Assembly: GCA_017450105.1 (NCBI GenBank) | Contig: JAFSXC010000075.1 | Coordinates: forward strand, 1 to 52,422 | From: Lachnospiraceae bacterium | GTDB taxonomy: Bacteria > Bacillota > Clostridia > Lachnospirales > Lachnospiraceae | Direction: 5' to 3' | DNA length: 52,422 nucleotides | Part shown: positions 353-15,032 of the stretch, one piece after another | How positions within the stretch are numbered: position 1 is the first letter of the stretch | How the letters are laid out: every line of letters begins with the position of its first letter | Notes under the pieces: generated by a model | Databases searched by the model: none | What the model was told of the DNA's origin: nothing | The model's input: the letters and a program-made list of their open reading frames with translations, nothing else | Translations under genes and position numbers: made by a program

Positions 353-1666
353 ATGAAAAAAATCCTTGTTGTGGATGATGAACAGATCATGCTGACCCTT
401 TCGAAAAAGATCCTCGGTCCTTATTATGACGTGGTGACGGTTACCTCCGGAAAGGAAGCGCTGGATATTTACGAGAAGGAGAAGCCGGATCTGGTGCTTC
501 TGGATGTTTATATGCCTGAGATGTCCGGGTATGAGACCCTGTATTCCTTACGCGAGCGCTACGGGAAAAACGTGAAGGCCATGTTCGTAACGGCGGATGA
601 CCGGGTAGAGGGCGAGAGCGAGGGCTTTGAAAGCGGAGCTATTGACTATGTGCGCAAGCCCTTCCGTTCGGATGTGCTGCTGCGGAGAGTCGAGATCGTT
701 CTGCAGAACCAGGAGGAGCTCCAGGATATCAGAAACGTATCCGGAACCGACCCCATGACGGGCTTTTTGAACGCCTCCTCTACGGAGGAAGAGATCGATG
801 ACGCCTGCTGCCACGGGGAGCGGGGGATGTTTCTGGTCCTGAACATCGATAATATGAAACAGCTCAACGACACCTACGACCACAAAATGGGAGACCAGAT
901 CCTGCTCCGGTTTTCCTTCCTGCTTCGCCAGATTACCCGGTCCTCGGATATCGCCGGACGGATCGCGGGTGACGAATTTGCCGTATTCTTCCGTACCATT
1001 CCTTCGGCAGAGCTGATCGGCAAGAGATGCAAGTTCTTAAACGAGGGGCTGATCTCCGGGCTTATGGAGATGATGGGAGAGGACTGTGACGTTCCTGTCG
1101 GTGTTTCCATCGGCGGCGCCGCGGCTCCGGAAGAGGGCCAGGATTACAATACGCTCCTGATAAAGGCCAGAAGCGCCCTTCGGAACGTCAAACGCCACGG
1201 CAAGCATAATTTCGGCTTCTACGGTGCACCGGAGACGCGGGCGGAGGACGTGGAGGACGCGGATCCCGATACGCTCCAGCATGTGCTTTTCCTTTTCGGA
1301 GAGAAGAACCGGGTTTCGGGTGCCTATATTGTGACCAAGGAGACCTTTAAGCCCATTTTTCAGATCTTACGCCGGGTAGCGGATCAATACGGGCGCAATA
1401 CCCAGCTTCTGATGCTTACGCTGGAGAAGGAGGATGCCTCCGAGGAGCTGTGCGACCATTTCGAGCATTTCCTGGCGACCCACCTCAGACGGTCGGATCT
1501 GGTGCTGCGTTACCAGGAAAAAACCTTCCTGATTATGCTCCCGGATACGGCAGTGGCCGGCGGAAAGTTCATGCTCCGCCGGATCGAAAACAGTTGGACC
1601 CAGGAGCCTGGGAACGAGGGCCTGACCTTCTCCGTGGATTCCATGGATATCCGGGCCGGGTTCTAA
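353..1666 (+). CDS. Response regulator with tandem GGDEF-like domains (putative diguanylate cyclase)
   Basis: 437 aa. Residues 1-120 form a CheY-like receiver with acidic pocket D8-D9, phospho-acceptor D51 (LVLLDVYMP) and the KPF lysine near 101. Residues about 130-290 form a GGDEF domain whose signature is AGDEF (205-209), preceded at the correct five-residue distance by an RxxD inhibitory site (R196-D199). Residues about 310-437 look like a second, degenerate GGDEF domain: RRSD (379-382), five residues, then QEKTF in place of GGDEF. The first domain could make c-di-GMP from GTP, since a leading Ala is tolerated in some active cyclases; the second cannot be catalytic but could bind product. 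No kinase gene is adjacent. The stop codon lies inside the first palindrome of the repeat that follows. Confidence 0.88.
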   Translation: MKKILVVDDEQIMLTLSKKILGPYYDVVTVTSGKEALDIYEKEKPDLVLLDVYMPEMSGYETLYSLRERYGKNVKAMFVTADDRVEGESEGFESGAIDYVRKPFRSDVLLRRVEIVLQNQEELQDIRNVSGTDPMTGFLNASSTEEEIDDACCHGERGMFLVLNIDNMKQLNDTYDHKMGDQILLRFSFLLRQITRSSDIAGRIAGDEFAVFFRTIPSAELIGKRCKFLNEGLISGLMEMMGEDCDVPVGVSIGGAAAPEEGQDYNTLLIKARSALRNVKRHGKHNFGFYGAPETRAEDVEDADPDTLQHVLFLFGEKNRVSGAYIVTKETFKPIFQILRRVADQYGRNTQLLMLTLEKEDASEELCDHFEHFLATHLRRSDLVLRYQEKTFLIMLPDTAVAGGKFMLRRIENSWTQEPGNEGLTFSVDSMDIRAGF

Positions 1667-1932
1667 GGAAACGCTGATTTAATCAGCGTTTCCTTAGAAG
1701 CCTTCGGCGGGATGTACCCGCAGGGCAGAACCGCAGAAAATCGCAGAGGAAGGCCGCAGTCTACGTTCCACTCCGGTCGGCTGCAAGAGAAGCTCCACCG
1801 GAGCTTCGCAGCCGGCCGCGATTTTCGCGCGGGAAACGCTTTAATCAGTGTTTCCTTAAATGCTCCGCAGGATGCGCACGGATTTTCAGCGGAAACTGGC
1901 ACTTCGTGCCGAAAATCCGGCGCGGGAAACGC
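1663..1932. repeat. Dispersed structured intergenic repeat, copy A (expanded)
   Basis: Starts with a 35-bp palindrome: CTAAGGAAACGCTGATT (1663-1679), one central base, and its exact reverse complement (1681-1697). A body shared with copy B (14685-14827) follows. It contains GAAAATCGC (1736-1744) pairing with GCGATTTTC (1818-1826) and, inside, GGCTGC (1779-1784) and GAAGCTCC (1789-1796) pairing with GGAGCTTC (1800-1807) and GCAGCC (1808-1813). The shared part closes with a GGAAACGCTTTAATCAGTGT-like end near 1832-1851. A second foldable unit follows: CGGATTTTC (1879-1887) and GGCAC (1898-1902) with GTGCC (1906-1910) and GAAAATCCG (1911-1919). No transposase is encoded. Together with 1933-1986, where I see nothing, this accounts for the gene-free stretch. 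Confidence 0.85.
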
Positions 1933-6432: not shown

Positions 6433-6439
6433 AAATACA

Positions 6440-6645
6440 GGTCTGGGGTGTGCGACCATCCTGCTTTTTTGAACCTACAGTTACTTTAAACGGGAATCCT
6501 ATATTCGCAAATGGATGTCAGGCCTCAGTAATTCGTCTGAGTATCCCTCATTCGGCGGTGGAAGGCAGAAGTTTGCATGCGGTAACCCACCTGGCTTTTG
6601 GCTAGGAGTCAAAATAGCCGGAACAGGCATTTCGGGCCTCATAAG
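6440..6645 (+). ncRNA. ssrS: 6S RNA (RNA polymerase regulator)
   Basis: About 200 nt, non-coding, with its own promoter and terminator. The segment CTTTTTTGAACC...TTTAAACGGGAATCC resembles the central bubble of Bacillus 6S RNA (TTTTTGGAAC...TTGTAACGGGAA). The ends can form nested stems: TGGGGT (6444-6449) with GCCTCA (6636-6641), then CGA with TCG, then CCTG with CAGG, giving the long closed hairpin with an internal bubble that mimics an open promoter. 6S RNA binds the SigA holoenzyme in stationary phase. Identification is from recalled similarity and a hand fold; an Rfam search would settle it. Confidence 0.75.
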
Positions 6646-14503: not shown

Positions 14504-14662
14504 ATGGACAAGTATGTATGCGGCCCCTGCGGCTACGAGTACGACCCGGAGGCGGGGGATCCGGATAACGGAGTGGAGCCCGGGACGGCGTTTGAGGATC
14601 TGCCGGAGGATTGGGTATGCCCCATATGCGGCGCCGGCAAGGAGGAATTCGAGAAGGCGTAA
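14504..14662 (+). CDS. Rubredoxin
   Basis: 52 aa, the standard rubredoxin length. Four iron ligands occur as two CxxC pairs: C6-G-P-C9 and C39-P-I-C42, with the conserved [19 protein letters not shown] and [15 protein letters not shown] segments. This small cytoplasmic Fe(Cys)4 protein carries single electrons, in anaerobes commonly to peroxide and superoxide detoxifying enzymes such as rubrerythrin. AGGAGG lies about 8 nt before ATG. It stands alone, flanked upstream by a hairpin and downstream by repeat copy B. No redox partner gene is adjacent. Confidence 0.97.
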
Positions 14663-14684: not shown

Positions 14685-14827
14685 CTAAGGAAACGATGAT
14701 TTAATCATCGTTTCCTTAGCCGCTCCGCGAGGATGTACCCGCAGGGCAGAACCGCAGAAAATCGCAGCGGAAGGCCGCAAGCGGCCGCGATTTTCGCGCG
14801 GGAAACGCTTTAATCAGCGTTTCCCTA
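14685..14827. repeat. Dispersed structured intergenic repeat, copy B (compact)
   Basis: Begins with a 35-bp palindrome, CTAAGGAAACGATGATT (14685-14701) and its exact reverse complement (14703-14719). The body can fold as CCCGC (14738-14742) with GCGGG (14798-14802), GAAAATCGC (14757-14765) with GCGATTTTC (14787-14795), and GGCCGC (14773-14778) with GCGGCC (14781-14786). It ends with the dyad GGGAAACGCT (14800-14809) and AGCGTTTCCC (14816-14825). Same orientation as copy A at 1663-1932 and largely identical outside the variable hairpin; the first palindrome differs from copy A by a compensated base pair. Confidence 0.88.
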
Positions 14828-14856
14828 ACCCGAAGGGATAATTGATTTGGGCTTAA

Positions 14857-14952
14857 GTTACTGACATTGATCCCCACCTTGCGGCAACTACGTTGTGAAA
14901 GAGGCGCGGCCCAAGCAAGAGATTGGCCATCTCTTGGGGTGTGAGCAGTAAC
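14857..14952. other. Foldable intergenic segment upstream of leuS, unassigned
   Basis: GTTACTG (14857-14863) and CAGTAAC (14946-14952) could close a domain containing two hairpins: CAAC/GTTG around TAC (14885-14895) and CAAGAGAT (14916-14923) with ATCTCTTG (14929-14936). No T-box sequence (GGGTGGNACCGCG) is present. It could be a small RNA, a remnant of a longer repeat or chance. A short echo, GCGGCAACTGCGCTGTG, occurs near 17461 after leuS. Confidence 0.35.
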
Positions 14953-14970
14953 GACACATCCGCAACTTCG

Positions 14971-14999
14971 TTGACAAATAAGACCTCTGCTCGTAAAAT
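14971..14999 (+). promoter_or_regulatory. Promoter of leuS
   Basis: Consensus TTGACA (14971-14976), 17-bp spacer, TAAAAT (14994-14999); predicted start at about 15006, so the leader would be only about 27 nt. Confidence 0.75.
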
Positions 15000-15032
15000 A
15001 CACTCATACGTATTTTACAGCGGAGGTTTTTT
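14984..15032 (+). promoter_or_regulatory. Terminator-like dyad overlapping the leuS -10 and Shine-Dalgarno
   Basis: GTAAAATAC (14993-15001) and GTATTTTAC (15010-15018) are perfect 9-bp arms. Outer pairing of CCTCTGCT (14984-14991) with AGCGGAGG (15019-15026) extends the stem to about 17 bp with one bulge. T6 (15027-15032) follows and runs directly into the ATG at 15033. The right arm contains the GGAGG ribosome site. It can be a terminator for readthrough transcripts and an operator for the leuS promoter. Confidence 0.65.

Follow-up and report, generated by a model that had tools for sequence, protein, structure and literature searches.

The window examined here is a stretch of 52,422 nucleotides (nt) from a Lachnospiraceae bacterium (GenBank assembly GCA_017450105.1, contig JAFSXC010000075.1, positions 1–52,422, forward strand). 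It contains two copies, A and B, of a dispersed repeat that can fold. Copy A is found at the end of a response regulator-GGDEF gene, and copy B lies between a rubredoxin gene and leuS. The two sites very probably represent copies of a miniature inverted-repeat transposable element (MITE) of about 125–145 bp that would be mobilised in trans by a DDE transposase of the insertion sequence (IS) family IS5. The features of the two loci are listed below.

353..1666, plus strand: response regulator-GGDEF gene; copy A has its left target site at the stop codon of the gene itself
1663..1697, plus strand: palindrome P1 of copy A, consisting of CTAA, the GGAAACGCTGATT terminal repeat and its inner complement
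1698..1859, plus strand: unit 1 of copy A, with small hairpin, GGATG, central stem with an enlarged hairpin, and right palindrome P2
1759..1814, plus strand: enlarged hairpin piece of copy A, approximate (left edge set by eye)
1860..1932, plus strand: unit 2 of copy A, a diverged second small hairpin and core, sharing its palindrome with unit 1 (model match 1829–1962)
14504..14662, plus strand: rubredoxin gene upstream of copy B (PF00301, E = 4.7e-24)
14685..14719, plus strand: palindrome P1 of copy B, with the compensated change A12/T24
14720..14799, plus strand: small hairpin, body and central stem of copy B, with a one-sided AGCGGAA bulge
14800..14828, plus strand: right palindrome P2 of copy B, ending in GTTTCC and CTAA
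15033..17447, plus strand: leuS, the downstream neighbour of copy B

Copies A and B in the window

The P1 palindromes of copy A (1663–1697) and copy B (14685–14719) are 35 bp in length and perfect in each copy. Positions 12 and 24 are C and G in copy A and A and T in copy B, which is a compensated change. The stem GAAAATCGC / GCGATTTTC is common to both copies and only the hairpin tips differ. Thus the letters of both copies bear out the sequence-only reading, an earlier reading of the window which had reported perfect palindromes with a C-G to A-T compensation and differing inner hairpins between shared arms. Its boundaries for copy B hold except for the end base (14685–14828). Copy A, which it took for a single unit, is in fact two units arranged head to tail, 1663–1859 and a second core at about 1860–1932. 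A covariance model built from 38 copies gives unit 1 (1663–1810) 49.3 bits, unit 2 (1829–1962) 58.6 bits and copy B 109.1 bits, and two extra plus-minus matches in the window are the palindromes read on the opposite strand. Single units of the element are about 125–145 bp in length. Segments that resemble the enlarged hairpin of copy A (the matches cover window positions 1739–1814) recur elsewhere in genomes G003 and G002. The open reading frames that lie largely over the copies (1663–1983 and 14716–15003, both minus strand) match no Pfam family, and the element holds no transposase gene.

The TAA of the copy A palindrome doubles as the stop codon of open reading frame 353–1666. In G003, a member of the same genus, the GGDEF ortholog ends in the same manner, GGGTTC and then the stop, and the element is absent. 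Therefore the TAA that opens copy A is the gene's own stop codon. G003 also lacks the element at the copy B site, its rubredoxin and leuS matches being 12 bp apart. In copy B the CTAA at the left is matched by CTAA at the right. Comparison of seven named contigs with loci of the window's own genus gave no orthologous site. By crude open reading frame calls, the upstream frame of 10 of 77 copies ends on a stop codon that the element provides at just this position, and the element's neighbors are oriented ++ (26), −− (18), +− (15) and −+ (11).

Other repeats are present at these sites. Beside copy B, window positions 14840–14960 hold a second dispersed repeat (TTAAGTTACTGACATTG ... GTGTGAGCAGTAACG). 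The host genome has over a dozen other matches to it, and it too is absent from that site in G003. The G003 site orthologous to copy A is taken up by a different repeat, similar to GGGATCGCACGTAAGCGACCAAAGAACGGTCGC, which is seen in locus L223 after the GGDEF gene and in L227. Elsewhere in the window there is a 6S RNA gene (6437–6642; Rfam RF00013).

Ends, target site and IS5-family transposase

A search of genome G174 with the end motif (≤2 mismatches) gives 75 matches. Two of these form an inverted pair 1.24 kb apart at C108:5968–7211, and the remainder are the known copies and a few scattered matches. Between the inverted ends is one transposase open reading frame of 337 amino acids that belongs to the IS5 family (330 amino acids scanned: NF033581, E = 1e-71; PF05598; PF01609). 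Among 34 carrier genomes, which are part of the known carriers, a homologous transposase was matched five times, at full length in G174, G169 and G142 and partially in G108 and a second time in G169. The three full IS5 elements have GGAAACRCTGATT-type ends (the right end in G174 is GGAAACGCAGATT) and are flanked by the duplications CTAA/CTAA, CTAG/CTAG and CTAG/CTAG. The repeat thus shares its terminal inverted repeats with autonomous IS5 elements of three genomes, all outside the window's genus. Ends of the CTAA-GGAA kind are recognised in six genera (the window's and those of G174, G142, G169, G148 and G080), three of which have the IS5 element. The left end of the G169 element reads, by eye, as a decayed P1 palindrome.

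Target duplication was assessed in 50 copies from the window's genus, G174, G142, G169 and G148. The 4 bp at the left are identical to those at the right in 35 copies (shuffle mean 27.2). Where the left site is a variant other than CTAA, four of eight copies display the same variant at the right (p 0.0001; ≤1 in 10,000 shuffles reach this), namely TTAA/TTAA twice, CTTA/CTTA and CTAG/CTAG. The sequence YTAR is the 4-bp target duplication rule of IS5 elements (PMC10359306). A duplication of TA only, as in IS630, was dismissed, since the final T is followed by AA in all 22 of the 22 G174 copies. The element's ends and target are well supported. The sequence-only reading had listed a non-autonomous element among its possibilities and had proposed target-site duplications as something to look for. 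That possibility was the right one, and it can now be tied to an IS5 transposase family by the shared GGAAACRCTGATT ends and the 4-bp YTAR duplication.

An IS5-family transposase supplied by another element is the most likely mover in the window's lineage. The proposed process is as follows. The element would carry GGAAACRCTGATT inverted repeats at its ends, each built into a palindrome, and would be moved in trans by the transposase. Insertion would be at YTAR, mostly CTAA and sometimes the TAA stop of a gene, with duplication of those 4 bp. The palindromes and the folded core would stay paired either through a need of multiplying lineages for the DNA fold or through copying of one arm from the other, rather than for an RNA function in the host. 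The mover may have been lost from the window's genus, or missed there.

Copy number and distribution

The host genome has 40 matching pieces by DNA search, at no fewer than 25 places among the matches listed. These include full elements, truncated elements, a tandem and solo palindromes. DNA search of relatives finds matches in 6 of 61 genomes, including all four members of the genus sampled. A covariance model from 14 copies of the genus matches 35 of 150 genomes of the family at E ≤ 0.001, the own genome included; copy numbers per genome are lower bounds, as no more than 23 candidates in each were scored. The 38-copy model matches 3 of 299 genomes drawn from the phylum when 11 candidates per genome are scored under strict filters: the window's own, G318 of the same family and G327 of another family. 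The repeat is therefore not confined to the two copies in the window, and further copies with covariation and defined ends are present. In G327 there are four fold matches (L162, L164, L166 and L168), and the core of L162 differs.

In genome G174 the same ends are seen in 22 full or near-full copies, whose flanks differ. The named records in which near copies occur are metagenome-assembled genomes of Lachnospiraceae, from goat rumen, the RUG assemblies and roe deer. G130 and G166 have one 129-bp copy in common, letter for letter, from which a copy in G014 departs by a single base. Since these are three genera and the flanks differ, horizontal spread is suggested, with cross-contamination of the metagenome-assembled genomes as a possible alternative. 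Among 33 stretches of viral contigs there is one clear copy (L180, E = 7e-13), the next match being L187 at 0.0017. No match was found for one copy of another lineage in plasmids or for copy B in phages.

At C116 (L018) and C32 (L022) of the own genome, a copy of the family seems to lie within a larger inverted-repeat element whose ends resemble GATCATTTCAACGCAGGACC / GTTCCTGCGTTAAAACGATC, and L019 (C97) starts inside an element with ends of this type. Half elements in G003 (L041, L042, L045, L046 and L048) begin at approximately ATGCGCA and extend to or towards P2, as if a second unit, with a left boundary of its own, were mobile.

Fold and covariation

The order of the fold is the long palindrome P1, a small hairpin with a UYC loop, GGATG, a bulged stem, GCGC and palindrome P2. 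The core stem has a purine-rich bulge on one side and a variable tip, and the conserved unpaired motifs include GGATG and RGGAA. In the 38-copy alignment, which was fitted to a model of the same structure and is biased toward it, 94.9% of 1710 cells are paired and 44 of 47 pairs have changed on both sides. Double-changed cells number 547, compared with 146.6 (standard deviation 10.8) in shuffles that ignore relatedness and 63–95 in slid controls. The short tip and the small hairpin covary as well. The 14 copies of the genus, taken by themselves, show two-sided change in 12 of 43 pairs. The claim of the sequence-only reading that structure is conserved while sequence changes is thus right, and strongly so; the covariance-model search and covariation test that it had proposed gave the 35 family genomes and the excess of double changes described above. 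Seven single-strand folds (both window copies, the minus strand of copy B and four other copies) are 7.4 to 9.8 standard deviations below dinucleotide shuffles, although palindromes give such energies trivially.

Across genera the inner pairs comprise 1461 Watson-Crick, 20 G-U, 21 A-C and 35 other combinations, and over all pairs there are 30 G-U and 28 A-C. As G-U is no commoner than A-C, these counts favor pairing at the DNA level without proving it. The balance of 20 to 21 would if anything be conservative, because the covariance model should favor G-U over A-C. A transfer RNA control, with fixed-offset stems of which some are misplaced, shows 9 G-U, 3 A-C and 9 other mismatches over 60 positions in 5 genes. 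Consensus folds within five genomes have 235 Watson-Crick and 3 G-U pairs among 238 predicted; the G130 fold is partly different.

Within five genomes (57 copies), breaks in a single arm give 33 G-U, 19 A-C and 27 other combinations (G-U versus A-C, binomial p 0.07). This lean to G-U runs counter to the DNA-level reading and leaves room for a modest RNA-strand bias. The same copies show 9 single pair-restoring changes, 26 double Watson-Crick changes, of which 20 lie in G169 with its mixture of two subfamilies, and 2 doubles of other kinds. The 22 copies of G174 have 21 single-arm changes and zero double changes. Thus copies break pairs after insertion and multiplying lineages keep them.

The core behind other ends

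The same folded core recurs behind quite different ends. The end sets are the IS5 type, TATAG, CTCAGTSGGAG without visible duplication, and T-rich ends directly behind intrinsic terminators. No mover was found for the end-types other than CTAA. Ten of 11 copies with T-rich left ends, from 8 genera, are directly behind a terminator-like hairpin and T-run; the same is true of 1 in 33 shifted windows and of 3 among 108 copies belonging to other classes. The class was drawn after inspection, and these counts exclude copies whose flanks were repeated or short. The class also gains from the T-run criterion, in which the first bases of the element itself are included. Scoring the hairpin by itself gives 9 of 11 copies and 3 of 44 shifted windows. 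In eight other genomes a hairpin precedes 7 of 59 copies, their own shifted windows giving 18 of 236. One end-type appears to target transcription terminators.

Tentatively, the folded core (the small UYC-loop hairpin, GGATGCGCA, the bulged stem and GCGC) may be a DNA module that travels with several sets of mutually unrelated ends in the Lachnospiraceae, a parasite of several transposition systems in which the fold is kept rather than the sequence. This is possible but the less likely case.

Weighing of alternative explanations

A transcribed structured RNA, either cis-regulatory or a small RNA, that is dispersed and kept for its RNA fold would explain the very strong covariation, the low folding energy, the conserved unpaired GGATG and RGGAA, and the lean to G-U among breaks within genomes. 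The sequence-only reading had also named an RNA regulatory module. Against it stand the nearly equal G-U and A-C counts across genera, the scarcity of G-U in consensus folds, neighbors in every orientation and the common single-arm breaks. In addition, no Rfam family matches the element at gathering thresholds, either in the window or among 18 loci from other genera, and the best match below gathering, RF03142 with 20.9 bits (gathering 37.8), is on the opposite strand. This explanation is improbable. The compensated changes could instead be unselected, with one arm copied onto the other by quasipalindrome correction or fold-back repair. In a few copies, G142 C140 for example, one compensated pair is among the few changes that set them apart from sibling copies, and palindromes remain perfect in lineages whose copies otherwise drift; however, G174 has only single-arm changes, and the short tip and small hairpin covary too. 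Arm copying as the whole explanation is doubtful, but it is the strongest of the rivals. Most likely, transposition either requires the pairing or gives rise to it, and the fold is probably kept at the DNA level, travelling behind other ends also.

With regard to the ends, CTAA might be part of the element on both sides, in which case there is no target duplication and the likeness to a MITE is only apparent. The left CTAA is nearly fixed in G174 (20 of 22 copies) and not all flanks match. However the variant sites match on both sides, the same duplication flanks the three IS5 elements, and the stop codon at the site of copy A belongs to the gene itself, so this is very unlikely. A repetitive extragenic palindrome (REP/BIME/REPIN type) moved by a Y1 transposase (RAYT, IS200/IS605) has the slimmest chance of all. 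Solo palindromes do occur alongside composite forms, and Y1 genes are found in 7 of 14 carrier genomes tested, all seven with other end-types. A Y1 search gave no match in G000, G174, G142, G169, G014, G094 and G161, the first four being all the CTAA-end genomes tested; when 38 copies were compared with 10 Y1 loci there were four short matches, of which the longest, in G108, has 23 bp; and the CTAA lineages show inverted repeats and 4-bp duplications. The REP/BIME likeness suggested by the sequence-only reading, together with the REP-associated transposases it proposed to look for, is thus unsupported in the window's lineage, and this mover was rejected there. The hairpin that lies upstream of L073, L079 and L080 was also considered for a link to TnpB/IS605; no TnpB-like open reading frame was noticed by eye, no domain search being made, and there were only the short Y1-locus matches.

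Several observations weigh against a MITE moved by IS5. The homologous transposase has no match in the four genomes of the window's genus (G000–G003; the own assembly is 85.7% complete), and among the 34 carriers it is matched in only four, that of G108 being partial; a partner in its own genome would help a MITE but is no requirement. Fifteen of the 50 copies lack an exact 4-bp match, one of them (G001_C29) from a misplaced right end, and the informative variant sites are a small number, eight copies. The IS5 mechanism accounts for the ends, but it leaves the conserved core unexplained, and likewise the lineages whose ends differ. A transposon relic that covaries across genera yields scores normally taken as proof of a functional RNA, and ends, target duplications and the balance of G-U and A-C help to separate the two. 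The family also provides a tractable case in which a single folded module is combined with ends of several kinds.

Comparison with known systems

Among openly licensed papers, by title or abstract opening, no description of this repeat was found. Small mobile sequences such as ERIC, RUP and NEMIS have TA duplications, and the ends of the Lachnospiraceae element differ from theirs. The small mobile sequences of bacteria are likewise non-autonomous MITE-like repeats with diverse motifs (PMC2229807). The bcr1 repeat (100–170 bp) and other stem-loop families are also intergenic, structured and repeated (PMC2267715); the present element differs in its occurrence in Lachnospiraceae and in having an identified transposase family. 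REP and BIME, the GTAG- and CGTC-tagged palindromes, resemble it as extragenic palindromes found solo and paired (PMC3733652). Unlike these, the element has inverted repeats and a 4-bp duplication, and no Y1 transposase was matched in the genomes of its lineage tested.

The element also resembles Porphyromonas gingivalis MITEs such as BrickBuilt, MITEPgRS and MITE700, which are related to IS5-family elements (PMC4596501). These are also short and multi-copy, with terminal repeats like those of resident IS5 elements. BrickBuilt duplications are reported there as variable in length and sequence. The Lachnospiraceae element differs from this group in having a palindrome at each end, a multi-hairpin core that covaries across genera, and the YTAR duplication of IS5.
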